Of a DNA stretch of 64,000 nt, positions 22,622 through 36,326 are shown piece after piece. The notes below the pieces were generated by a model. It was given only the letters and a program-made list of their open reading frames with translations. It did not search any database and was not told the origin of the DNA. The position numbers and the translations under genes are program-made. The stretch comes from Poseidonibacter antarcticus (lineage in GTDB: Bacteria > Campylobacterota > Campylobacteria > Campylobacterales > Arcobacteraceae), in NCBI RefSeq assembly GCF_003667345.1, contig NZ_RCWF01000005.1, forward strand, positions 124,001-188,000. The letters are read 5' to 3'. Position 1 is the first letter of the stretch, and every line of letters begins with the position of its first letter.

Positions 22622-23884
22622 ATGTTAAAAGTAGGAATTATTGGAGTAGGAACAGTTGGAACTAGTGTTGCAAATATTTTAAGAGATAATAAAAATATTA
22701 TTACTGCACGTGCTGGTATTGAGATTGAGCCTGTTCTAGGAGTAGTTTCAAACTTAAACAAAAAAAGAGATGTCTCTATCAAATTAACTGATAATATTGA
22801 TGATATTTTAAATGATGATTCAATTGATATTGTAGTTGAACTTATGGGTGGAATTGAAAAACCTTATGAAGTAGTGAAAAAAGCTTTAGCAAAAGGTAAA
22901 GCTGTTGTAACTGCAAATAAAGCTTTACTAGCTTATCATAGATATGAATTACAAGAAATAGCTGGAGATACTGCATTTGAATATGAGGCAGCAGTAGCTG
23001 GTGGTATTCCAATTATTAATGCATTAAGAGAAGGTTTAACTGCAAATAATATTTTATCAATCAAAGGTATTATGAACGGTACTTGTAACTATATGCTTAC
23101 AAAAATGATTCAAGAAGGTGTTGATTATGACACTATTTTAAAAGAATCACAAGAATTAGGATATGCAGAAGCTGATCCAACATTTGATGTTGGTGGTTTT
23201 GATGCTGCTCATAAATTACTAATTTTAGGATCAATTGCTTACGGAATTGATGCAAAGCCTGAAGATATTCTAATTGAAGGTATTGAAAATATTTCACCTG
23301 AAGATATTGATTTTGCATCTGAATTTGATTATTCAATCAAATTATTAACAATTGCTAAAAAAATTGGTAATCAAATCGAACTTAGAGTTCATCCTGTATT
23401 AATACCAAATTCGCAAATGATTGCAAAAGTTGAAGGTGTTATGAATGGTGTATCTGTAATTGGTGATAAAGTTGGTGAAACAATGTATTATGGACCAGGA
23501 GCAGGTGGAGATGCAACTGCTTCAGCTGTTGTTGCAAATATTGTTGATATTGCAAGACGTGGAAAAGGTTCACCAATGCTTGGTTTTGAGGCTTCTTATG
23601 GTGAAGATTTAAAACTAATGAGTAAAGACGATATTCAAACAAAATATTATTTAAGACTTAGAGTTGAAGATAAAGCTGGTGTATTAGCAAAAGTTGCAAA
23701 TATTCTAAGTAAATATGATATTTCTATTGAAAAAATGATTCAAAAACCATTAAATAAAACTTGTGCACATATATTACTATCTACACATATTTCTATTGAA
23801 AGTAATATAAATAAAGCACTTGCTGAAATTAAAGAAGCAGGTGTTGTAACAGCTGAACCTGCAATGATTAGAATAGAAGATTAA
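22622..23884 (+). CDS. hom: Homoserine dehydrogenase
   Basis: The 420-residue protein has an N-terminal NAD(P) site (IIGVGTVGTSVANIL), the middle-domain motif EAAVAGGIPIINALREGL, the conserved NGTCNYMLTKM, and a C-terminal ACT domain (about 345-420) for allosteric feedback. It reduces aspartate semialdehyde to homoserine, which leads to threonine and methionine. It lies 20 bp after the aminotransferase gene. Confidence 0.96.
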   Translation: MLKVGIIGVGTVGTSVANILRDNKNIITARAGIEIEPVLGVVSNLNKKRDVSIKLTDNIDDILNDDSIDIVVELMGGIEKPYEVVKKALAKGKAVVTANKALLAYHRYELQEIAGDTAFEYEAAVAGGIPIINALREGLTANNILSIKGIMNGTCNYMLTKMIQEGVDYDTILKESQELGYAEADPTFDVGGFDAAHKLLILGSIAYGIDAKPEDILIEGIENISPEDIDFASEFDYSIKLLTIAKKIGNQIELRVHPVLIPNSQMIAKVEGVMNGVSVIGDKVGETMYYGPGAGGDATASAVVANIVDIARRGKGSPMLGFEASYGEDLKLMSKDDIQTKYYLRLRVEDKAGVLAKVANILSKYDISIEKMIQKPLNKTCAHILLSTHISIESNINKALAEIKEAGVVTAEPAMIRIED

Positions 23885-23972: not shown

Positions 23973-25340
23973 ATGGATAACACTTTGACAAAATCAAATC
24001 ACTTAACTACACAAAAAATCCCATCACTTATTAGACAGTTAGCAATTCCTGCAAGTGTTGGAATGTTTTTTAACACTATGTACAATGTTGTAGATACATT
24101 TTATGCTGGACTTATTTCAACCCAAGCAATTGCAGCTTTATCTCTATCTTTTATGATATTCTTCTTAATTATTGGTCTAGGATATGGTTTTTCTTCAGCA
24201 ATTACTGCCTTATTAGGAAATGCTTTTGGAAAAAAGAAATATAAATTGGCTTCAATTTATGCACATAAAGGTCTATTTTTTGTACCTCTTCTTGGTATTC
24301 TTCTTGGAATTATTGGATATTTTGTAGCACCTTCATTGTTTATTTTATTAGGTGCAAGTGAACAATATTTAGCTACATCAATAGAATATATAAATCCTAT
24401 TTTATTTGGTACAGTATTTTTTATGTTTAATTTCTCACTAAACTCAATACTTGTGGCACAAGGTGATACAAAAACATATAGAAATACTTTAATATTTGGT
24501 TTCTTTGCAAACCTAGCTTTAAATCCTTTATTTATTTATGGATTTTTATTTATACCTGCAATGGGAATAAAAGGTATCGCAATTGCTACAGTTTTAATTC
24601 AAGTAATAAATATGTTTTTTATGCTTTATAAAGTACTTCAAACAAAAGTTATTCACTTTGAGAAATTAGAATATTTTCTTCCAGATTTTAGAATATATAA
24701 ATTATTTATGAGCCAAGGATTACCTATAAGTTTGAGTATGTTAACTATGGCATTTGGTTCATTAATTCTTACTTATTTTGTATCTCATTACGGTATGCAA
24801 GCAGTTGCAGGATATGGTATAGGATATAGAGTTGAGCAACTTATGCTTTTACCAGCACTTGGTCTTAATACTGCTGTTTTAACACTTGTTTCAAATAATT
24901 ATGGTGCTAAAAAATATGATAGAGTTATTGAGACATTAAAAGTTTCACTTAAATATGGATTTATAATTTCGACTGTTGGAATAATATTATTAACTCTTCT
25001 TGGAAGATTTATTATCACTCAATTTGATTCAAATGAAATAGTTGTAAACTTTGGAGTTGATTATTTACTAGTTGAAATATGGATTTTCTATGCTTATATT
25101 GTTTTATTTATTTGTGTATCAACACTTCAAGGAATAAAAAAACCTAAGATGATTTTATTTATTAGTTTATATAGACAAATTATTGCAAAACTTATTATTG
25201 CATGGATTATTGTTAAATATTTTGAATTGGATTACATTTATTTATGGTTTGGAATTTTATTTATGATTTATAGTGCTGCAATATTCACATATTTTTATAC
25301 AAATAAAGTACTTAAAAAAGTTTGTAATAAAACAATTTAA
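23973..25340 (+). CDS. MATE-family multidrug/cation antiporter
   Basis: The 455-residue protein has about twelve membrane segments in two similar halves. The N-terminal motif is SLIRQLAIPASVGMFFNTMYNVVDTFYAG, and GYGIGYRVEQLMLLPALGLNTAVLTLVSNNYGAK starts the second half (shown for its GYGIGYR...QLMLLPA signature). It exports drugs or organic cations using sodium or protons. It ends by overlapping the stop of a convergent MFS gene by 4 bp. Confidence 0.9.
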   Translation: MDNTLTKSNHLTTQKIPSLIRQLAIPASVGMFFNTMYNVVDTFYAGLISTQAIAALSLSFMIFFLIIGLGYGFSSAITALLGNAFGKKKYKLASIYAHKGLFFVPLLGILLGIIGYFVAPSLFILLGASEQYLATSIEYINPILFGTVFFMFNFSLNSILVAQGDTKTYRNTLIFGFFANLALNPLFIYGFLFIPAMGIKGIAIATVLIQVINMFFMLYKVLQTKVIHFEKLEYFLPDFRIYKLFMSQGLPISLSMLTMAFGSLILTYFVSHYGMQAVAGYGIGYRVEQLMLLPALGLNTAVLTLVSNNYGAKKYDRVIETLKVSLKYGFIISTVGIILLTLLGRFIITQFDSNEIVVNFGVDYLLVEIWIFYAYIVLFICVSTLQGIKKPKMILFISLYRQIIAKLIIAWIIVKYFELDYIYLWFGILFMIYSAAIFTYFYTNKVLKKVCNKTI

Positions 25341-26575
25341 TCTTTAGATACATAATCTTCATCTTGTCTTGGATCTAACTTGGATAATTCTGGACTTGAT
25401 GCAAGGGGAATATTAACAAAAACACTTAGGTCTTTGTCTTTTATTCTTTCTTGCGTTAAGGCATAAATACTTAGAATAATGCATAAAATAAAGAAACTTA
25501 TAAATAAGAAATTTGATGATAAACTAAGTCCAAAACCTATAATAAGTGGAGATAAAAATGAACCAATCCCATAAGTAAATAGCAAACTTCTACTTATTTC
25601 TACAATATCTTTATTTTCATCAACAACATCGTTTGCTCTTGCAACTGCTAAAGGATACAAAGTAAATATTGCTAAGCCTAAACAAAATCCTAATATATAT
25701 AGATAAATTTCTTCATTTCCATATATTATAAATAAAAGTGAAATAATCGCACTAAAAAATGAAACAATAGAAATAAGTTTTCTTCTACCAAATTTATCTG
25801 AAAGTATTCCAACTGGCCATTGAGAAATCAATCCACCAAGAATAGAAATTAACATAAATTTTGAAACAAGTTCAATAGAAGCACTTTGTGTAAGAATATA
25901 AACAGGAATCATTGAGAAAAAACCACCTACAACAAAACCGCTAATAAAACTTGTAACTGTTGCAAGAGGTGCAACTGAGAATATTTTTGGAAAGCTGAAT
26001 TTTTCAAAAGGTACTAATACTGGTTCTTTTATTTTAGTAAAAGAAATAAAAATAACAGAAAATAGAACGAGAATAGAACCTATTGTAAATATAAATTGTT
26101 TAAAATGCTCATCAATATTTAAGAATAATTGCCCAATTCCTATAGATAAATAGAAAATTATTGTATAAATAGCTAATATCTGACCTCTATTTTCTTCAGA
26201 ACTTTTTTCATTTAGCCAGCTTTCTAATATAATTAAAAGTGCATAAAAAGAAAATCCCGAAACTAATCTTAATACTGCCCATAATATTTCATTAAAAAAG
26301 AGTGAATGCATAAGAAAAGAGATAACCATAAGAGCAGCAAAAGCAGCAAAACTTCTGATATGTCCAACAGATGATATAAATTTTTGTGAAAATATAGAAG
26401 ATAAAACAGCACCTAAAAAAAATGAAGCATTAATAATACCAATAACAGTATTGCTAACTTCTAAATCTTTTAAATATACTCCTACAAATGTTAGAATCAT
26501 CCCATAACCAACAGCTAAAAATGCTATTGCAAAAAATAAAGATGATATTGGAAATACAATTTTTTTTAAACCCAT
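25337..26575 (-). CDS. MFS transporter
   Basis: The 412-residue protein has twelve predicted helices. The motif between helices 2 and 3 is degenerate, and WPVGILSDKFGRRKLI between helices 8 and 9 is the clearer MFS signature. The C-terminal tail is charged. It belongs to the drug/sugar group near YcaD-like exporters. The gene lies 28 bp after the bufferin cluster in the same direction and could be part of that transcript. Its substrate is unknown; export of a metal-binding peptide would be speculation. Confidence 0.82.
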   Translation of the reverse strand: MGLKKIVFPISSLFFAIAFLAVGYGMILTFVGVYLKDLEVSNTVIGIINASFFLGAVLSSIFSQKFISSVGHIRSFAAFAALMVISFLMHSLFFNEILWAVLRLVSGFSFYALLIILESWLNEKSSEENRGQILAIYTIIFYLSIGIGQLFLNIDEHFKQFIFTIGSILVLFSVIFISFTKIKEPVLVPFEKFSFPKIFSVAPLATVTSFISGFVVGGFFSMIPVYILTQSASIELVSKFMLISILGGLISQWPVGILSDKFGRRKLISIVSFFSAIISLLFIIYGNEEIYLYILGFCLGLAIFTLYPLAVARANDVVDENKDIVEISRSLLFTYGIGSFLSPLIIGFGLSLSSNFLFISFFILCIILSIYALTQERIKDKDLSVFVNIPLASSPELSKLDPRQDEDYVSKD

Positions 26576-26603
26576 AAATTAACTCTTTTTCTTTTAGTAT
26601 ATT

Positions 26604-27317
26604 CTAATAAATCGCCTTTAATAAAAGTAATTCTTGTAAAGGTTCTTGTAAAATCTCTTTTGCTTCATTAAAATCAATTTCATTTTCTTTACAAAGTATT
26701 TCTAAAATTTTAGAAAGAGATTCTTTTTTATTTGATTTTTTGATTAAAACATATAAAAATTGATTTATTTCTCTATATAATACTTCATCACTTTTATAGT
26801 CATAATATATGATTAAAAAGTTTTCTCTCGTATTTTCATAGTCTTTATTTATAATATCAAAATCAAATCTTTTAAGCCTTGCACTTGGAGCTAATTTATA
26901 TCCATTTTCCCAAGAAAAATCTTTCTTTTTTATCTTTTTATATTCTTTCATATATATTTCAACTTCAATCCAGTCAAAATATAATAGTTCATAAAGATAT
27001 TTTCTATTATGAAAAAGTTTTTGTTTTTTTACAAATTTTCTATAATCATTTGCTATTTGCCACACATATGGAGTACTTGGAGGATTTTTTAAAAATGAAT
27101 AAATACTTTTTTCTAACTCATCTTCACTTATGTGTTTACAAAACTCTATAAATGTACTTTTAACTATTTCTTCAAATCTATAAAAAACAAGTTTTTGATA
27201 AACTTTATATACAGAATTTGTAGGATTTTCTTTTTGATTACTTATAATATCAATAAATCTATCTTGTACATTTTTCTCAATAGTTTTTTCAACTTTTTTT
27301 GTTTTTTTATTTTGCAT
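26604..27317 (-). CDS. BufC/HvfC-like partner protein of the DUF692 enzyme
   Basis: The 237-residue protein overlaps bufB by 11 bp. Its pattern is an N-terminal helical region with FYRFEEIVKSTFIEFCKHISEDELEKSI-like content (FCKHISEDELEKSIY) and a central YVWQIANDYRKFV and FDWIEVEIYMKEY. This fits the DUF2063-type partners that recognise the RiPP precursor. The C-terminal part (LYVLIKKSNKKESLSKILEILC) suggests a winged-helix-like domain. It is assigned mainly by gene order next to a DUF692 enzyme and precursor; the sequence match is moderate. Confidence 0.7.
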   Translation of the reverse strand: MQNKKTKKVEKTIEKNVQDRFIDIISNQKENPTNSVYKVYQKLVFYRFEEIVKSTFIEFCKHISEDELEKSIYSFLKNPPSTPYVWQIANDYRKFVKKQKLFHNRKYLYELLYFDWIEVEIYMKEYKKIKKKDFSWENGYKLAPSARLKRFDFDIINKDYENTRENFLIIYYDYKSDEVLYREINQFLYVLIKKSNKKESLSKILEILCKENEIDFNEAKEILQEPLQELLLLKAIY

Positions 27318-28131
27318 TACGAACTGCCTTACAAATTCTTTCCATCTTTCTATACTCTATTTCAAGCTCACTAAGAGGTGGGACATTGTTATCTCGTTCA
27401 ATCATTACAGGTGCATCTATTTGTTTTAAAGTATACTCTAAAAGTTTCCAAACACCAGAACAAATTGGCATTCCATGAGAATCTATTTTTAAAGCAGATT
27501 CTTCATCAAAATAATGACCTGCCATATGCATATAAGCTACTTTACTTTTATCAATTTCATCAATAAATTTTCGTGCTTTAAAAGAGTGATTAGAAGCATT
27601 TACAAATACATTATTTACATCAAGTAACATTTTTGCACCTGATTTTTCCATTACTTCATTTATAAAATCAACTTCTCTCATTTCAGAATAAGGTACTAAA
27701 TAATATGTAGAGTTTTCTAGTATTAAATTTCTTTGAATTATATCCTCAACTTCTTTTACTCTATCACTTATAATATCTACCATCTTTTTTGTCATTGGAA
27801 CAGGTAGTAGTTCATAAGATTGTCTATTATCTAAAGAGGAAAAAGAAAGATGTTCAGAATAAAATTCTATATTATATCTATCTAGGAAAGTTTTGATTTG
27901 CTTGACAAACTTTCTATTAAGTTTGCAAGCAGAACCAATTGATAAAGATAAACCATGTGCAATTGTAGGTCTTGAAAAAACAGCTTGTTCAAATGCTTTT
28001 TCATAAATTCGAGGCATATGCATCCAGTTTTCAGGAGTTACCTCCCACCAATCTGGTTGAAATTTACTTGATTGTATATCTAGTAAAAAATCACTTCGTA
28101 AGCCTAATCCACATCCATTTAAATTCATCAT
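27307..28131 (-). CDS. DUF692 multinuclear iron oxidase (BufB/HvfB/MbnB-like)
   Basis: The 274-residue TIM-barrel protein has the DUF692 motifs GCGLGLRSDF, PDWWEVTPENWM, AHGLSLSIGS, YSEHLSFSS, LLDVNNVFVNASNH and YMHMAGHY. His, Glu and Asp in these motifs bind the iron centre. Enzymes of this family oxidise cysteine residues of precursor peptides to copper-binding thioamide or thiooxazole groups. The precursor gene lies 20 bp upstream and the partner gene overlaps downstream, the canonical buf/hvf order. Confidence 0.92.
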   Translation of the reverse strand: MMNLNGCGLGLRSDFLLDIQSSKFQPDWWEVTPENWMHMPRIYEKAFEQAVFSRPTIAHGLSLSIGSACKLNRKFVKQIKTFLDRYNIEFYSEHLSFSSLDNRQSYELLPVPMTKKMVDIISDRVKEVEDIIQRNLILENSTYYLVPYSEMREVDFINEVMEKSGAKMLLDVNNVFVNASNHSFKARKFIDEIDKSKVAYMHMAGHYFDEESALKIDSHGMPICSGVWKLLEYTLKQIDAPVMIERDNNVPPLSELEIEYRKMERICKAVRNAK

Positions 28132-28151
28132 TGTTTATTCTTTATTAAAAA

Positions 28152-28472
28152 TTATTTTGCTTCTTTTTTCATATCAGCACCACATTTACCAGCACCACAA
28201 GAAGCTTTTTTCATATCTTTTTTCATCTCATGACCTTTCATGTCGCCTTTTTTCATATCAGCACCACACTTACCAGCACCACATGAAGCTTTTTTCATAT
28301 CTTTTTTCATATCAGCACCACATTTACCAGCACCACAAGAAGCTTTCTTTTCAGTTTTCTTAACATCACCACCACATTTTCCTGCACCACACGAAGCAGT
28401 TCCTGCAAAAGCAGCTGTACTTGTTAAAGCAGCTCCTAACATAATTCCAGCTAATTTCATTTTAGTATTCAT
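28152..28472 (-). CDS. Bufferin-type RiPP precursor with four SCGAGKCG motifs
   Basis: The 106-residue protein has a signal peptide (about residues 1-23, ending AAFAG) and then four repeats built on ASCGAGKCGADMKK. The spacers between repeats are rich in Lys, Met and Asp. HvfA/BufA precursors usually carry EGKCG motifs whose Cys is modified by the DUF692 enzyme encoded next. Here Ala-Gly-Lys-Cys-Gly follows a second Cys in each repeat, giving eight cysteines. The likely product is an exported copper-binding peptide that buffers the metal in the periplasm. AAGGA lies 6 bases before the ATG. The gene sits directly downstream of a CusA-like pump gene. Confidence 0.88.
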   Translation of the reverse strand: MNTKMKLAGIMLGAALTSTAAFAGTASCGAGKCGGDVKKTEKKASCGAGKCGADMKKDMKKASCGAGKCGADMKKGDMKGHEMKKDMKKASCGAGKCGADMKKEAK

Positions 28473-28639
28473 TTTAAATCCTTGATTTTAATTGACATTT
28501 ATTTTGTCATTCTTATTATTTACTTCCTTTATTTAAAGAAGCGACTTTTGATTTTAATTTTTTATATCTTTCATATGTACGAGAGCATTTTATATTTTTA
28601 TTGTGTAGTGAATGTTTAGATTACTACATATTTAAAAGA
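28473..28639. promoter_or_regulatory. Probable promoter region of the bufferin cluster
   Basis: This 167-bp gap between the pump gene and the precursor gene is the only space long enough for a separate promoter. On the minus strand AT-rich boxes such as TATAAAAT and GATATAAAA occur. I see no clear metal-regulator palindrome. Confidence 0.35.
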
Positions 28640-31600
28640 TTACTCAAACTTATCCTTTTTCTTCATTTCTAGTATATAAAAGATTGAAGGTATTATAATT
28701 AAAGTTAATAATGCAGATGAGAACATTCCACCAATCATCGGTGCTGCGATTCTTTGCATAACTTCACTACCCACTGAATTTATATACATAATAGGAATAA
28801 GACCCCCTAAAATTGCAAATAGAGTCATTAACTTCGGACGTAGTCTTAAAACTGCACCTTTGTATATTGCATTAAAAATATCACTTCTATTTATTTGTTT
28901 TGATTTTTGTTTTAATTCATTCATAGCTTCATGTAAATAAACCAACATTACAATAGATGTTTCAGCTGCAATTCCAAGAAGAGCAAGAAAACCAACGATA
29001 ACAGCAATAGAAATATTAAAGTCCAAATAATCAAGATAAAAGATTCCACCTGTTAAAGCAAAAGGAAGTGTAAAAAATATAATCATTGTATATGTAATAT
29101 TTTTTAGTGCAAAATATATTAATAAAAAAATAATTACAAAAGTAAATGGAATAATATATATTAATCGCTGTACTGCTGATTCCAAGTATTCACTTTGTCC
29201 TGCCCATTCATAATAAAAACCATCAGGTAATTTAATATCATTTAAAAGCTCTTTTGCTTCATCTTTATACTGTTTTGCAGATATTCCACTTTTAGGTGTA
29301 ATATAAATAAAGTTTACATTTAATGCTTTTTCAGATTTTATAACAGAAGGTCCTTCTTCATATTTTAAGTTTGCAAACATTTCAAGATTCTGGAATCCAA
29401 GTTTTGTTTTTATCTGTAAATTACGAAGAGATGTAATATCTTCTCTTTGTGTAGTTTCATATCTCAAACTTATTGGGTATCTTTCAAGTCCATCTAAAAA
29501 TGTAGATATTTTTGCTCCCGCAACTCCCAATGAAATAGTAGAAAGAATATCATTTTTTGTAATTCCATACCTTGATAGCATTTCTTCTTTTACTTCTATA
29601 TTTAAGTAATAACCAGAATTAATTTTATCTGTTGATACTGAAAGAGTTTTATTAAACTTTTTTAATTTTTGTTCAATTACCCCTGCACTTATTTCTAATT
29701 GTTTATGATTATTACCATATAATTTTATACCAAGAGGAGTTCTTATACCTGTTAAAAGCATATCAATTCTTCCTCTTATTGGATAAGTCCAAGAGTTAAT
29801 AAGACCTGCAACTTGAAGTTTTTTATCCATTCCTTCCATAAGTTTTTTATACGTCATTCCTTTTCGCCATTGTTCTTGAGGTTTAAAAGTAATAATAGTC
29901 TCAATCATTGCAAGAGGGGCAGGATCAGTTGCTGTATTAGCCCGACCTGTTTTTCCAAATACAGTTTGTACTTCAGGAAAGGACTTGATGATTTTATTTG
30001 TTTTTTGTGTTAATTCTTTTGATAAATCAATTCCTAAACCATAAGGAGTTACGGGCATATACATAATTGTTTGCTCATTCATCATTGGCATAAATTCCCA
30101 ATTTAATTTTTTATAAACTGGATAGGAAACAATTAACATTCCGAAAAAAATAAATACTACTAAATATCTAAATTTTAAAGATAATTTTAACAGTGGAGAA
30201 TAAAGTAAAATAAAAAACTTATTCAATATGTTTTTATCTTCTCTTACAATTTTTCCACGTATAAAAAATATCATAAGAATAGGAACTATAGTAATAGATA
30301 ATATTGCTCCACTTATCATTGCAAACGATTTGGTAAAAGCTAAAGGAGTGAACAATCTTCCTTCTTGTCCTGTTAAGGCAAATATTGGAAGAAAAGAGAC
30401 TACAACTAATATCAAAGCAAAGAAAATGGGTCGTCCAACTTGTTTTGCTGATTTTATTATGATCTTAATTCGTTCTTCATTTGATATATTTTCTTTTCCT
30501 TGAAGATGTTTATGTGCATTTTCAACCATTACAATCGTAGCATCAACCATTGCACCAATTGCAATTGCAATACCACCTAAACTCATAATATTTGAGCCCA
30601 TTCCAAAAGCTTTCATTAATAAAAATGTAATTAAAACCGTAAGAGGAAGAGTGATTATAATAATTAACGCTGATCTAAAATGAAATAGAAATAATCCTGT
30701 AATAATCATAACAATAATGGACTCTTCTATAAGTGTATTTTTAAGTGTATTTATTGCTTTATCAATAAGTGTCGACCTATCATAAGTTTCAATAACTTCA
30801 ACACCTTCAACTTTTAGTGTTTTGATTTTTTCTTTTACTGCTTTGATAACTTTATATGGATTTTCACCAAAACGAACAATTACAATCCCACCAACAGTTT
30901 CACCTTCACCGTTTAAATCTACCATTCCTCTTCTGTTAGTTGCTGTAATATTTACTTCTGCTATATCTTTTATTTTTAGAGGTATTGTATTATTTGTTTT
31001 TATTGTAATATTCTCAATATCAACAATAGATTTTAAATATCCCTTAGCTTGAATCATATGTTCAAAGCCATTTTCTAGAATAATTCGACCACCTTTTTCA
31101 TCATTATTTGAAGTTAGTGCTTTTTTAACTTGATTTATAGAAATATCATATTGAACTAGTTTATCTTGGTCTAATGTGATTTCATAGTTTTTTATAAAAC
31201 CACCAATACTTGCAATTTCACTTACTCCATCAACACCAAGTAGGGCATATTTATAATAATAATCTTGTAAAGTTCTTAGTTCATCAAGTGATTTATTATC
31301 AGATTTAAGTGCATATTCATAAGCCCAACCAACACCCGTTGCATCTGGACCAATTGTAACATTTGCATCACTTGGAAATGTTCCTTGTAAAGAAGATAAT
31401 TGCTCTAATATTCTATTTCTTGAATCATAAAGATCCGTTCCATCTTTAAAAATAATATAAATTAATGCATTTTGAAAAGAACTCATAGCTCTTACTGTAT
31501 CAATATTTGGTAAAGACATTAAATTTGAGATTAGTGGATATGAAACTTGTTCTTCTATTGTTTTAGGACTTTGTCCAGCCCACTTAACTTGTACAATTAC

Positions 31601-31738
31601 TTGAGGAGGTGATAAATCAGGTAAGGCATCTAAACTTGTATTTTTAACTGCCCAAATAGATGCAAACGTTAAGATAATTATAGAAAAGAGTACTAGAAAC
31701 TTATTTTTAATGCTGTATGAAATTATATTTTCTACCAT
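28640..31738 (-). CDS. cusA: CusA/CzcA-type heavy-metal efflux RND pump
   Basis: The 1032-residue protein is of full RND length. The N terminus (SLDALPDLSPPQVIVQVKW) and GIAIAIGAMVDATIVMVENAH mark the heavy-metal (HME) class. Stretches such as GRANTATDPAPLAMIET, EQWRKGMTYKKLMEGMD and RIDMLLTGIRTPLGIKLYG closely follow CusA. They include methionines in the periplasmic region that suit copper or silver. It would pump Cu(I) through the adaptor and channel encoded upstream. It lies 9 bp after cusB. Confidence 0.92.
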   Translation of the reverse strand: MVENIISYSIKNKFLVLFSIIILTFASIWAVKNTSLDALPDLSPPQVIVQVKWAGQSPKTIEEQVSYPLISNLMSLPNIDTVRAMSSFQNALIYIIFKDGTDLYDSRNRILEQLSSLQGTFPSDANVTIGPDATGVGWAYEYALKSDNKSLDELRTLQDYYYKYALLGVDGVSEIASIGGFIKNYEITLDQDKLVQYDISINQVKKALTSNNDEKGGRIILENGFEHMIQAKGYLKSIVDIENITIKTNNTIPLKIKDIAEVNITATNRRGMVDLNGEGETVGGIVIVRFGENPYKVIKAVKEKIKTLKVEGVEVIETYDRSTLIDKAINTLKNTLIEESIIVMIITGLFLFHFRSALIIIITLPLTVLITFLLMKAFGMGSNIMSLGGIAIAIGAMVDATIVMVENAHKHLQGKENISNEERIKIIIKSAKQVGRPIFFALILVVVSFLPIFALTGQEGRLFTPLAFTKSFAMISGAILSITIVPILMIFFIRGKIVREDKNILNKFFILLYSPLLKLSLKFRYLVVFIFFGMLIVSYPVYKKLNWEFMPMMNEQTIMYMPVTPYGLGIDLSKELTQKTNKIIKSFPEVQTVFGKTGRANTATDPAPLAMIETIITFKPQEQWRKGMTYKKLMEGMDKKLQVAGLINSWTYPIRGRIDMLLTGIRTPLGIKLYGNNHKQLEISAGVIEQKLKKFNKTLSVSTDKINSGYYLNIEVKEEMLSRYGITKNDILSTISLGVAGAKISTFLDGLERYPISLRYETTQREDITSLRNLQIKTKLGFQNLEMFANLKYEEGPSVIKSEKALNVNFIYITPKSGISAKQYKDEAKELLNDIKLPDGFYYEWAGQSEYLESAVQRLIYIIPFTFVIIFLLIYFALKNITYTMIIFFTLPFALTGGIFYLDYLDFNISIAVIVGFLALLGIAAETSIVMLVYLHEAMNELKQKSKQINRSDIFNAIYKGAVLRLRPKLMTLFAILGGLIPIMYINSVGSEVMQRIAAPMIGGMFSSALLTLIIIPSIFYILEMKKKDKFE

Positions 31739-31747
31739 AATATCTTC

Positions 31748-32752
31748 CTACCAGTCTTCATCATCATCTGATGAATATAAACCGTTTGTAACAGCATCAG
31801 AATCAAGTAAAAATAGGGCGTTGTTTATTACAATTTGTCCTTCTTCTAAACCACTTAATATTTCATATTTACTTGAAGACAATCTTTTAGCTTCAATTTC
31901 AATAGGTTCAAATTCAGTTTTAGAAAGGTTTTGGAAAACATAAAACTTATCACCTTTTCTAAGAACTGCTGTTTTAGGTAAAGTTAACATCTGTTTTTCA
32001 ATAGTTTTAATCTTTACCTTTGCAAACATATTGGGATAAAGTTTTAAGTCTTTATTGGCAATTATAAATCGTACATCTACAGTTTTTGTTTTCATATCAA
32101 CTGTAGGATAAATCATATCAACCTTCGACGCTATTGGATTTTTAACTCCATCTATATAAATTTTTGCTTTCATATCTTTTTTTATGAATGATAAATCTTT
32201 TTGATAAACAGAGGCAATAAACCAAAGTTCATCTAAAGATACTAATTGAAGAAGAAGTTTTCCTTTTTTTATAAAACTTCCTTTATTTATATTTTTTTGT
32301 AAAATAATAGAATTCATAGGTGAATAAAAAGAAATGTCTTTTAGAACTTTTTTAGAACTTTTTATTTTTTTAATCATTGAAGAATTTATATCCAAAGATT
32401 TTAATTTCTCAATATTACTATTTACTAATGATTTATTAAATTTTTTTGCAATTTGTAATTCTTCTTGAATTGAAGATATTTCATTTGAATATATAGTAAA
32501 AAGTGGACTTGCTTTTTTTATAGTTTTATATTGTTCATTTGCATATAATTTTGTGATATATCCGTCAAACCTAGTCACAATATCATAGATTTTTGTTTCA
32601 TTTAGAGCTGTTCTTCCATAAAAGCTTTTTAAAGTACCTATTTGCTCTTTTTGTACTTTGACAAGCTTTTTATTAAACACTTGTGAAACTTCAATGATTT
32701 GAGCATTTAGTATTGAAACTCCTAAGAGTAGGGCTATGAAGAGGTATTTCAT
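31748..32752 (-). CDS. cusB: CusB-like periplasmic adaptor
   Basis: The 334-residue protein has a signal peptide (KYLFIALLLGVSILNA) and the lipoyl-like motif RFDGYITKLYANEQYKTIKKASPLF. Its coiled-coil hairpin is short. The beta-barrel region contains SLDELWFIASVYQKDLSFI, and the C-terminal membrane-proximal domain contains KTAVLRKGDKFYVFQ. This is the architecture of heavy-metal RND adaptors. It starts at the stop of the channel gene, with a 1-bp overlap, in a three-gene exporter operon. Confidence 0.9.
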   Translation of the reverse strand: MKYLFIALLLGVSILNAQIIEVSQVFNKKLVKVQKEQIGTLKSFYGRTALNETKIYDIVTRFDGYITKLYANEQYKTIKKASPLFTIYSNEISSIQEELQIAKKFNKSLVNSNIEKLKSLDINSSMIKKIKSSKKVLKDISFYSPMNSIILQKNINKGSFIKKGKLLLQLVSLDELWFIASVYQKDLSFIKKDMKAKIYIDGVKNPIASKVDMIYPTVDMKTKTVDVRFIIANKDLKLYPNMFAKVKIKTIEKQMLTLPKTAVLRKGDKFYVFQNLSKTEFEPIEIEAKRLSSSKYEILSGLEEGQIVINNALFLLDSDAVTNGLYSSDDDEDW

Positions 32753-33957
32753 TATATTTCCTTAGTAAAATATATAGATTTAGCAATTGCACTAAAATAT
32801 TTATCTTTTTGATTAATTACTTCTAATTTATATTTTATGATTTCATTTAAATTATTTATTAAAGATTTTGAATCAATCTTTTGCAAAGAGTTATATGATT
32901 CTAGAACTTTTTGCAATTGATTAAATTTTGGAAGAATTTTATTATTAATAATATCAAGTGTAATTATTGAATCATTTATAGTTTCTTGTAGTATTTTTAT
33001 TTTATTTTTAAAGCTTGATTTTAAATCTTGAATATTATGATTTATTTCAATAGTTTTTATTTTTGCTTGTTTTGATTTTATATCTTCACTTCCTCTAAGA
33101 GACAAAGGAATTGCAAATGCAATATTTACATAATCTTCATATTTCTCATCTCTTTGAAAATAGTTTAGTGAAACTTTTATATCTGAATTCTTTTTTTCTT
33201 TTTCTAAAATTGAAATATTATCTTGCTTTTTTGAACTTTGAATAAGTGATAATATTTTAGGATGAGAATTTATATTTGTAAGAAGTTTTATTTTTTTTAT
33301 TTTAGTATCAATATTTATATTTTTAATTTTTTCGTATGTGATTTCTTCTAGGTTTAAATTTATTGTATTTAATAAAGTTTGTAATTTCTGTGATTTAAGA
33401 TTTAGTTCTTGATACAAAACTTGTGTATTAATAATTTGTATCTGAGTAGCTTTATTATATTTATATAGTTTAGTTAATAGTTCTTCTAATTTTAATGTAT
33501 TTGATTTAAATTCTTGAAAAAGTGCTAATTTTTCTTCTAATAATTTTTCTTTATAAATATACTCATATATTTTTGATTTGTATTGTAATTTCTTTTCTTC
33601 AAGTAAATATTTAGAAATTTGATAATCATTTATTGCTATTTTTTCTTTTCTTTGAAGTTTTTCACCTATTGGAACGATTTGAGAAAAACCGATAAACTGC
33701 GATTGCATCGCTTCTAAATCTCTTTTTGAAACATCATCAAATTGTATATCATTAATTCCAAATGTTAAAACAGGATTTTGCCATTTGGAAGAAAGTGCAA
33801 TTTGTTCTTTTGTACTTTTAATTGATTCTTCTAATGCTTTTAAACTATAATTATTTTTAAATGTATTTTCAATAATATTATCTATAGTTTGTGCATTAGC
33901 AAGAGAAAAACTTGCTAAGATTATTAAGGTAAATAGAAAAAGTTTTTTTCTCATCAT
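32752..33957 (-). CDS. CusC/TolC-like outer-membrane channel of the metal pump
   Basis: The 401-residue protein has a signal peptide (LFLFTLIILASFSLANA) and OEP-family helices, e.g. SSKWQNPVLTFGINDIQFDD and VNIAFAIPLSLRG. It is placed first in the cus-like operon with cusB and cusA. It would be the outer-membrane exit for the pumped metal. No lipobox is visible, unlike enterobacterial CusC. Confidence 0.85.
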   Translation of the reverse strand: MMRKKLFLFTLIILASFSLANAQTIDNIIENTFKNNYSLKALEESIKSTKEQIALSSKWQNPVLTFGINDIQFDDVSKRDLEAMQSQFIGFSQIVPIGEKLQRKEKIAINDYQISKYLLEEKKLQYKSKIYEYIYKEKLLEEKLALFQEFKSNTLKLEELLTKLYKYNKATQIQIINTQVLYQELNLKSQKLQTLLNTINLNLEEITYEKIKNINIDTKIKKIKLLTNINSHPKILSLIQSSKKQDNISILEKEKKNSDIKVSLNYFQRDEKYEDYVNIAFAIPLSLRGSEDIKSKQAKIKTIEINHNIQDLKSSFKNKIKILQETINDSIITLDIINNKILPKFNQLQKVLESYNSLQKIDSKSLINNLNEIIKYKLEVINQKDKYFSAIAKSIYFTKEI

Positions 33958-33962
33958 AATAC

Positions 33963-34343
33963 TTATAAGTTAATACTTGATCTAATTTTATGTACTTTTC
34001 CATCTGCTGATTTAAACATTAGATGATATTGCCAAGTCCCACCCATTGAAAGATTAATCATAAATTTGTATTTTCCATCAACTAGTTTTGCTTTATCTTT
34101 AAATTCCATATATGGCATACCTGGCATTTCTGGCATAAAAAATTTTGCTTTTACTTTTGCATTTGTAACAACAACTCCATCTTTATACAAGCTAGCAAAG
34201 AAAATATTATCTCCAATTACTAGTGATTTTTCTGATTTTAGTACTATTTCATAAGAATCTTTTTGTACTTTATGAGATATTACTTCTGCATTTAAAAAGC
34301 CAAAAGTCAGTGTTACAATAGTCAATAATTTTAATAAGTTCAT
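33963..34343 (-). CDS. FixH/YtkA-like periplasmic protein with a Met-rich segment
   Basis: The 126-residue protein has a signal peptide and a single Ig-like FixH/YtkA fold. It includes VVTNAKVKAKFFMPEMPGMPYMEF and MGGTWQYHLMF. The cluster of methionines (MPEMPGMPYM) suits Cu(I) contacts. The gene lies 5 bp before the channel gene of the Cus-like operon, so a copper-handling role is likely, by context. Confidence 0.75.
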   Translation of the reverse strand: MNLLKLLTIVTLTFGFLNAEVISHKVQKDSYEIVLKSEKSLVIGDNIFFASLYKDGVVVTNAKVKAKFFMPEMPGMPYMEFKDKAKLVDGKYKFMINLSMGGTWQYHLMFKSADGKVHKIRSSINL

Positions 34344-34419
34344 AATAAACTCCTTTTTTAATTTAAAGGAGTTTATTCTTTTAATATGGAAGTAGTGTGG
34401 AAAAATAAAAGTTGAATAG

Positions 34420-35571
34420 CTAATTAAAAGTAAGTATAAAAGTTGTGCCTTCTTTTATTTTTGAGTGAACATCTATTTTTATTTTATATTCATCACATAT
34501 ATTTTTTACAATATTAAGTCCAATACCAAAACCACCACTATCATTTGTTGCTCTATAATATCTATTGAAAATATCCTTTACTTTTTTTTCTTCAATTCCT
34601 ATACCAGAATCTTTGATAAGAAGTTTTTTATCTTTTAATTCAATATTAATAAAACCTGTTTTTTTATTATATTTTATTGCATTGGATAAAATATTATTAA
34701 AAACTCTTATAAAATCATTTTTATCTATCATAAATTTTAATTCTTCTAAACTAATATTTATAGTAATTTTCTTTTTTTGTGCTAATACATCAAAATATTT
34801 TAACTCTTCTTCAATAATTTCCTTTAAAGAAATATCTTCTAAATTAATTTTTTTTTCTTTATCTTCTAAAAAAATATATGTTAAATCTTTATATATTTCT
34901 GATATTTTAACTGATGCTAATCTTATTCTCTCAATTTGTTTTTTACTTAATTCTTCTTTTTCACAGGACATTAAAATAGCACTAATTGGTGTATTTAACT
35001 CATGAGTTGTATCTTTTATAAAGTTGTTTAACTTTTCTCTTTCATCTTTTATTGGTTTTAAAAATAGTCGTGCAAGATAAAATCCAATAAGAGCTAAAAT
35101 TGTATATATCGTCATAAAAAGAATAATTATTTCATTTTTTAGATTTTGAACTCTTTGAAAATATACATTCTCTTTTATCGCAATATAATATATTCCAAGG
35201 TGACCATAAGTAGAATTATCAAGTAAAATAAAATACTTATCTTTTTTGATAATTTTTTTAGAAAAATCAATTTTCTCATCTAAATTACCGTACATCTTTT
35301 TTTTATCTTTATCATAAAATGCAATTTTATAAAGTTTTGTTCTCAAAAACTGTGAAGTATCAATTTTTTTATTTTTCATATGTGAAAAGATGATTTGTGA
35401 AGTAATATTAGATACTACATTTTGCATTTTTGTTTTTGTTAAATCAAAATATAGTTTTTTCTCATTTTGAAAGTAAAGTAGGGCAATAAAAAGCATTAAA
35501 ATAAAAGAAGCACCTAAATAAAGGCTAAGGAATCTAATAAAGGTACGTTTTTCACTTTGTGTTAAATTAAT
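34420..35571 (-). CDS. Sensor histidine kinase; probable ATT start
   Basis: This is a membrane sensor with two transmembrane helices around a periplasmic domain of about 95 residues, then a linker. The H box is DTTHELNTPISAI (His190 by my start), followed by the N box NAIKYN, the G1 box DSGIGIEE and the G2 box GGFGIGLNI. The first in-frame ATG (35496) would cut the first membrane helix in half. Upstream the frame is open from a TAG and contains no ATG, GTG, TTG or CTG, but an AGGAG lies 6 bases before an ATT at 35571. That start gives MNLTQSEKRTFIRFL and a 383-residue protein. It is divergent from the response regulator gene and probably senses the metal exported by the nearby pump. Confidence 0.82.
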   Translation of the reverse strand: MNLTQSEKRTFIRFLSLYLGASFILMLFIALLYFQNEKKLYFDLTKTKMQNVVSNITSQIIFSHMKNKKIDTSQFLRTKLYKIAFYDKDKKKMYGNLDEKIDFSKKIIKKDKYFILLDNSTYGHLGIYYIAIKENVYFQRVQNLKNEIIILFMTIYTILALIGFYLARLFLKPIKDEREKLNNFIKDTTHELNTPISAILMSCEKEELSKKQIERIRLASVKISEIYKDLTYIFLEDKEKKINLEDISLKEIIEEELKYFDVLAQKKKITINISLEELKFMIDKNDFIRVFNNILSNAIKYNKKTGFINIELKDKKLLIKDSGIGIEEKKVKDIFNRYYRATNDSGGFGIGLNIVKNICDEYKIKIDVHSKIKEGTTFILTFN

Positions 35572-35651
35572 TATAAACTCCTAATTTATTCTTTTTTATC
35601 AAAAGTATATCATAAAAGTTTTTTTCCATATACTTTACATATTAAATTTAC

Positions 35652-35657
35652 TATACT
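35652..35657 (+). promoter_or_regulatory. -10 box of the response regulator gene
   Basis: TATACT lies 6 bp before the ATG, with no Shine-Dalgarno sequence in between. If it is used, the mRNA would be leaderless or nearly so. The 92-bp gap to the kinase gene must also hold the divergent promoter. Confidence 0.45.
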
Positions 35658-35663
35658 TGCAAT

Positions 35664-36326
35664 ATGAAAATATTACTACTTGAAGATGATACTTTATTAA
35701 ATGAAATTATAGAAGAGTTCCTAGAAGAATTAGGACATAAAGTAATTTCTACCTTTGATGGACAAGAAGCCCTTGAAACAATTTATGAACATAATTTTGA
35801 CTTATTATTACTTGATGTTAATGTACCATCATTAAATGGTTTTGATTTGTTAAAAAGTTTAAAAAATAATTCTATTAATACTGCTAGTATATATATCACT
35901 TCTTTACATACGCCAAATGATATGAAAAAAGGCTTTGATAGTGGAGCTGATGATTATATAAAAAAACCATTTCAATTAAGTGAATTAAATTTGAGAATAA
36001 ATAATATAAGTAGATTACGCCAAATTGAAAAAACAGGATTAAAAGTTTTAAGTCCAGATATTTCATATAATTATGATACAAAAAATATAACTATGCAAAC
36101 AAAACAAATACACTTATCTAAAACCCAAGCAAAAATTTTTGAGTATTTTTTAAAAAATGAGAATAAAACTATATCAATAGAAGAAATAGGTTTAAACAAT
36201 TGGGCGTATGATGAAATTCCAACAGATTCAACAATAAGAACATATATAAAAAACTTGAGAAAGATTATAGGTAAAGATAGAATTACCACTATAAAAGGAG
36301 TAGGTTACCAGGTAACCTTTAAGTAA
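35664..36326 (+). CDS. OmpR/PhoB-family response regulator
   Basis: The 220-residue protein has the receiver domain with acidic pocket LLEDDT, the phosphoacceptor Asp51 in LLLLDVNVPSLNGFD, Thr/Ser near YITSLHTP and Lys in IKKPFQLSEL. The C-terminal winged helix contains STIRTYIKNLRKIIGKDRI and IKGVGYQVTF. It is the natural partner of the divergent kinase. Its targets are likely the cus-like and bufferin operons on the opposite strand. Confidence 0.92.
   Translation: MKILLLEDDTLLNEIIEEFLEELGHKVISTFDGQEALETIYEHNFDLLLLDVNVPSLNGFDLLKSLKNNSINTASIYITSLHTPNDMKKGFDSGADDYIKKPFQLSELNLRINNISRLRQIEKTGLKVLSPDISYNYDTKNITMQTKQIHLSKTQAKIFEYFLKNENKTISIEEIGLNNWAYDEIPTDSTIRTYIKNLRKIIGKDRITTIKGVGYQVTFK

Follow-up and report, generated by a model that had tools for sequence, protein, structure and literature searches.

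Gene content of the locus

The 64,000-nt stretch of Poseidonibacter antarcticus DNA analysed here (the window) contains, between positions 25337 and 36326, a run of genes in which a two-component system and an efflux pump adjoin the genes for a putatively modified peptide. All the open reading frames (ORFs) named there by the first-pass annotation are present, and their families were upheld by searching the ORFs of the window with hidden Markov models (HMMs) from Pfam and NCBIfam, on which the assignments below are based. In order of transcription on the minus strand, they encode a sensor kinase, CrdA, an outer-membrane factor (OEP), a CusB-type adaptor, a CusA-type pump, a peptide precursor, an MNIO, an HvfC-like partner and an MFS transporter. 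The response regulator gene is oriented in the opposite direction to this run; hence the kinase and regulator, annotated as a divergent pair, are so only in respect of the regulator, the kinase being co-directional with the pump. The regulator (35664..36326, plus strand) is a CrdR-like member of the OmpR family falling into the second of two clades (I and II) in our trees, and the kinase (34420..35571, minus strand, as are all genes described below) is CrdS-like.

Both the MNIO and the pump are the only ones found in the assembly, in the latter case counting CusA/CzcA matches above the cut-off. The closest named relatives of the MNIO are from Arcobacter-type records, among them Poseidonibacter lekithochrous and P. 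ostreae. A plasmid origin for the locus was rejected, as the plasmids in PLSDB contained no match to it, and no Rfam family reached its gathering score between positions 23000 and 38500 of the window.

The efflux pump and CrdA

The pump gene (28640..31738) encodes a CusA/CzcA-type RND protein scoring 998 bits against TIGR00914, the cut-off of which is 701, and aligning with Escherichia coli CusA (3k07) at 955 bits, as against 443 for ZneA. With positions counted by hand, M561, M611 and M660 of the pump align with M573, M623 and M672 of E. coli CusA, which we take to be the three periplasmic methionine ligands of that protein; all three are conserved. The pump had been described as Cus-like, and both the profile score and the retained methionine triad bear this out. 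Upstream lie the genes for a CusB/CzcB-type periplasmic adaptor (31748..32752) and the outer-membrane factor (32752..33957), which occupies the position of CrdB.

The small secreted protein encoded ahead of these (33963..34343) had been labelled FixH-like, but its sole Pfam match at E 0.05 is PF13115 (YtkA), with none to the FixH model PF05751. It matches Helicobacter pylori CrdA (PDB 9ll2) with a phmmer E value of 1.4e-16, and its AlphaFold2 model (pLDDT 85.9) aligns in Foldseek with the H. pylori CrdA structures 9ll2 and 9ll4 at TMt values of 0.91 and 0.94, making these the closest solved structures. An MPEMPGMPYME block is invariant in all 16 aligned homologues; MPEMPGMPYM within it is close to the copper motif MMXEMPGMXXMXEM reported for H. 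pylori CrdA (PMC9182242), and contains MXEMPGM. On this combination of sequence and modelled fold, the protein is an orthologue of CrdA. The order crdA-OEP-CusB-CusA likewise equals the crdA-crdB-czcB-czcA order reported for H. pylori.

A 13-bp hairpin (34344..34377, minus strand; RNA z of -5.4) pairs the Shine-Dalgarno sequence of crdA, AAAGGAG, with CTCCTTT, the 5' arm extending into the presumed -10. It may silence only transcripts reading through from the kinase gene. As a z of -3 or lower was found in just eight of 20 homologues, such that the structure is strong in the window and weak in about half of its relatives, it was dropped as a mechanism.

A direct repeat upstream of three transcription units

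Comparing the upstream regions of relatives first revealed a direct repeat with 11-bp spacing, approximating to YTMCACA-N4-YTMCACA. Pattern searching located it as TTCCATATACTTTACATA before the regulator gene (35624..35641, plus strand), as TTCCACACTACTTCCATA before crdA (34385..34402, minus strand) and as CTAAACATTCACTACACA before the precursor operon (28602..28619, minus strand), the precursor gene being separated from that of the pump by 167 bp. The pattern YTMMAYANNNNYTMCAYA has only these three matches in the window, compared with a mean of 0.28 and a maximum of two in 100 shuffles, although it was drawn partly from the same three sites and hence this count is not an independent test, as the scans of other genomes are.

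The first of these scans used 36 loci from the same family, which together with 14 order-level loci form our sample, some of the fetched stretches ending at contig ends. Searching the family loci with a similar pattern gave 39 matches where 2.6 were expected, 34 of them no more than 700 bp upstream of a module gene. The strict pattern matched 14 times in 104 family genomes (reversed control, none), mostly before crdA or the peptide operon, and a class-wide scan of 101 genomes yielded 20 matches, spread over 19 of them (reversed control, one). Fifteen of these 20 lie directly before crdA, ten with a Helicobacter-like CrdA; the repeat stands before the crdA gene of Helicobacter too. A 21-nt sequence at crdA is the reported binding site of CrdR (PMC9927306), and as the repeat is found at the Helicobacter gene we term it a putative CrdR box. 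As judged by eye, all three promoters have a -10-like hexamer shortly after the box, in line with an OmpR-type activator.

Since the direct repeat before the precursor gene matches that found before crdA across the class, the peptide operon probably belongs to a CrdRS copper regulon, with the sensor, pump and peptide genes apparently switched on together by one control site. Over the whole assembly the pattern matched five times, three of these at this locus (reversed control, one); the remaining two (L101 and L102) have no metal genes nearby and were taken to be chance matches, so a wider regulon was rejected.

The peptide operon

Downstream of the exporter, on the same strand as originally described, are genes for the 106-aa cysteine-rich precursor (28152..28472), the MNIO (DUF692) maturase (27307..28131) and the DUF2063 partner protein (26604..27317). 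The precursor has a Sec-like leader, judged by eye to end in AFA, and four SCGAGKCG repeats containing its eight cysteines. It passes the NF050137 (HvfA) cut-off of 19.5 with 39.1 bits, fitting that profile with repeated Lys-Cys-Gly motifs in the form of four CGAGKCG units. The HvfB-like MNIO scores 287 bits against PF05114 and 307 bits against the HvfB model, under the cut-off of 360 for the latter, whilst the partner, assigned to DUF2063/NGO1945_C, matches PF09836 with 28.5 bits (cut-off 27.2) and NF050145 (HvfC) with 72, under the cut-off of 142. Such a precursor precedes the MNIO gene in all 36 family loci; the precursor finder also detected one in 13 of the 14 order-level loci, with none in L094.

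The peptide had been labelled a bufferin, a type of ribosomally synthesised and post-translationally modified peptide. This label does not fit: the precursor has no match at all in Pfam at E 0.05, where DUF2282 would be expected of Buf1, and is neither Buf1 nor Buf2 but a captophorin of the HvfA (oxazolin) type. In place of the pentamer EGKCG it has AGKCG, as is usual among the family precursors (127 instances of AGKCG to one of EGKCG), the captophorin class being defined by the thiooxazole rather than the pentamer. The maturase FonBC is reported to tolerate alanine at the first position of the motif (E1A), to accept A, R or T at the third, and to prefer a small residue following the cysteine (PMC12668002); a glycine directly follows 284 of the 288 cysteines in the precursors of the family loci. 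As these residue rules fit the repeats, all eight cysteines of the window precursor could become 5-thiooxazoles, each with a loss of 4 Da.

Such a peptide might be a secreted metallophore for copper acquisition, akin to methanobactin, instead of a buffer. The oxazolin of H. influenzae is reported as a copper-binding virulence factor, the export route of which is given as unknown (PMC13419390). Against this, the locus contains no importer gene, the peptide genes share their operator with an efflux pump, and bufferins are reported to improve growth in copper stress (PMC12452194); we judge a metallophore very improbable.

MNIO peptide clusters are described as mostly comprising a precursor, MNIO, DUF2063 and DoxX in varied combinations (PMC12452194); there is no DoxX gene in this locus. 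A YceI-like gene, encoding a periplasmic lipocalin-like protein, often directly precedes the precursor in genus g10 and in g2, g7, g11 and g12, with none so placed in the window; this identity was confirmed with Pfam in L053 (L053:11514-12092) only, the end of the product resembling YceI elsewhere. The long 5' leader of the precursor (28480-28590 of the window, minus strand) contains small hairpins, with TGACA/TGTCA here and GGTAA/TTACC plus TGATA/TATCA in relatives, which may covary. Given two small hairpins, six sequences only and a weak covariation term of -0.28, we do not claim a structured leader.

Distribution among relatives

The MNIO is patchily distributed, being found in 37 of 104 family genomes (one a partial match) and above the cut-off in 26 of 397 class genomes; left out of the sample were L027 and L028, with MNIO matches below the cut-off, and L097 (G412), with a partial match and no MNIO by tblastn. 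Of the 36 family loci, 28 have a regulator-kinase pair in the stretch that was fetched and 23 have a CusA pump; among the 14 order-level loci, eight have such a pair. Because a pump, a two-component system or both adjoin the peptide genes in so many related genomes, their joining exceeds chance. Linkage to the pump beyond the Campylobacterota was rejected: among 63 named loci, the 50 outside the Arcobacter group have no CusA match above 18% identity.

Two individual arrangements stand out. In the order-level locus L093 (L093:12155-16267), genes for a precursor, MNIO, partner, DoxX, regulator and kinase form one run, linking the peptide to a two-component system without a pump. In L055 (L055:4331-5530; genome G324), an ORF resembling an IS110-type transposase by eye is situated between the kinase gene and crdA, splitting the module.

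Exchange of the sensor-pump block

Trees and DNA identity along the locus distinguish two related sensor-pump blocks. That of clade I, with the regulator and kinase genes in tandem, is found in four sampled congeners (L050, L061, L067 and L075); that of clade II, with the regulator divergent, is found in this genome and congener G342, and has its closest relatives in genus g10, one matching record of which (L122) is named Halarcobacter. Between approximately 32.0 and 36.3 kb, the window more closely resembles g10 and G342; in gltX and the peptide genes, it more closely resembles its own genus. In tests based on quick trees, with groups defined after the first tree was seen, the CusB data rejected a single clade for the genus (p-AU 0.0003), which those for MNIO did not (p 0.39), whereas grouping the window with G342 and g10 was rejected for both MNIO (p 0.0099) and HvfC (p 0.0046). 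These results indicate that the sensor-pump block has been exchanged in place in this genome and in G342, whilst the peptide genes stayed. A breakpoint within cusA could not be placed, the identity of the window to both clades being similar along the protein.

The MFS_1 transporter gene (25337..26575) is found in only these two of the 36 family loci. It does end the run, as had been described, but it is a lineage-specific accessory neighbour and not part of a complete module.

The start codon of the kinase

The first in-frame ATG of the kinase gene, at 35496, falls inside the first transmembrane helix, and is where gene callers would place the start; however, the frame remains open upstream of it. 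An ATT at 35571-35569 follows a TTAGGAG Shine-Dalgarno sequence, and the alignment suggests that the kinase probably starts there. In all 34 of the family kinases examined, the conserved N terminus begins at ATA (23 cases), ATC (eight) or ATT (three), preceded by a purine-rich Shine-Dalgarno sequence. Twelve have no upstream in-frame ATG, GTG or TTG, with the rest mostly having a TTG two codons earlier, beside the Shine-Dalgarno sequence. The same test found ATG at the start of the regulator, CusA and MNIO genes (20, 20 and 36 cases, respectively), although mixed codons at the aligned position in the OEP gene mark it as imperfect. In clade I the kinase start is inside the conserved GYRF codons of the regulator gene, which can explain a non-ATG start; the divergent clade II retains such a start without the constraint of this overlap.

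A probable CrdRS-type regulon with a captophorin operon

The idea that peptide sequestration and efflux are combined in one copper-type locus, as put forward by the first-pass annotation, is supported at its core by the gene families, the conserved Cu(I)/Ag(I) residues of the pump, the orthology of CrdA and the common operator, whilst several of its labels were amended. In H. pylori, CrdR is reported to be needed for copper induction and CrdRS to activate crdAB-czcBA with copper (PMC4557348, PMC12319023). We consider it likely that the present locus constitutes a copper-resistance regulon of the CrdRS type, to which a captophorin operon has been added.

In such a regulon, the CrdS-like kinase would sense excess periplasmic Cu(I), and the phosphorylated CrdR-like regulator would bind the direct repeat, with its 11-bp spacing, close to the -35 region at three promoters, namely those of its own gene, of the crdA-crdB-czcB-czcA pump operon and of the precursor-MNIO-HvfC operon. 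CrdA would then bind periplasmic Cu(I) and the CusA-type pump expel it. In parallel, the MNIO and HvfC-like proteins would turn the eight precursor cysteines into 5-thiooxazoles in the cytoplasm, following which Sec would export the modified precursor and the mature peptide would buffer periplasmic Cu(I).

A number of points weigh against this interpretation. By eye, the adaptor lacks the N-terminal methionines of E. coli CusB. A copper regulon with two outputs is proposed here from sequence comparison, in which the repeat is likened to the CrdR site by its place before crdA and not through the reported 21-nt sequence. At the precursor itself, the box has a weaker first half-site, CTAAACA, and none of the 14 order-level loci has a CusA pump within reach, making pump linkage a family-level trait. 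These last two observations, along with the exchange of the sensor-pump block independently of the peptide genes, would suit a peptide operon that is a mere neighbour, with its own promoter and another regulator, leaving CrdRS to govern the pump alone. However, several congeners have good boxes before the precursor, in other genera such boxes separate the peptide operon from the clade I regulator gene, the recognition-helix motif is common to both regulator clades, and no other regulator in the genome exceeds 44% identity among the matches listed. Hence we regard independent control of the peptide as unlikely.

The remaining difficulties concern the signal. A link of H. pylori CrdRS with nitric oxide has also been described, and crdA is reported not to have been recovered in one RNA-seq study (PMC9927306); furthermore, H. 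pylori czcAB is listed with both copper and zinc (PMC4557348). The main signal might therefore be nitric oxide, zinc or envelope stress, but the CusA-type methionine triad of the pump, the methionine motif of CrdA and the reported binding of copper by captophorins (PMC12668002) all argue for copper, and we think another signal quite improbable.

A tentative, and to us doubtful, extension of the copper regulon is that the modified peptide relays Cu(I) to CrdA and CzcB for export, physically coupling sequestration to efflux, with both evolving as blocks exchangeable under one operator and the conserved AUA, AUU or AUC start of the kinase gene setting a low ratio of kinase to regulator. The regulon itself would place captophorins within a defined copper response of the Campylobacterota that has a concrete, testable putative operator, and would make their role in the cell directly testable, as sensor, pump and peptide are separately removable in a cultivable marine genus.

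Comparison with known systems

Among the matches listed from the openly accessible literature, no paper linked MNIO peptides to CrdRS or to Arcobacter. The locus shares with the H. pylori CrdRS/CrdAB-CzcBA system the reported gene order, the fold and methionine motif of CrdA, an OmpR-type two-component system and the direct repeat before crdA. It differs in that the two-component system is adjacent, whereas the H. pylori genes are reported as HP1364/HP1365 and HP1326-HP1329, and in having an appended captophorin operon that carries a separate copy of the box. That operon resembles those of oxazolins and fontiphorins (HvfABC and FonABC) in its Sec-leader, cysteine-repeat precursor, MNIO and DUF2063 partner, in the order A-B-C; unlike them, it has AGKCG/SCG in place of EGKCG, lacks DoxX, is linked to a two-component system and an RND pump, and has HvfB and HvfC matches under the equivalog cut-offs. 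Maturation by an MNIO and a DUF2063 protein in a copper context is common to the bufferins Buf1 (DUF2282) and Buf2, from which the precursor differs in having no DUF2282 match and another type of repeat.

The pump sequence and its methionine triad are shared with E. coli CusCFBA/CusRS; however, CrdA is found here where E. coli has CusF, and the operator is a direct repeat, whereas the CusR box of E. coli is an inverted repeat. In Cupriavidus metallidurans, a Cus pump is reported to serve copper resistance in one cell together with gig, an operon that contains DUF2063, although gig is divergent from the gene for an extracytoplasmic function (ECF) sigma factor and not joined to a pump and two-component system (PMC10304878). 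The P. antarcticus locus is a new combination of these known parts.

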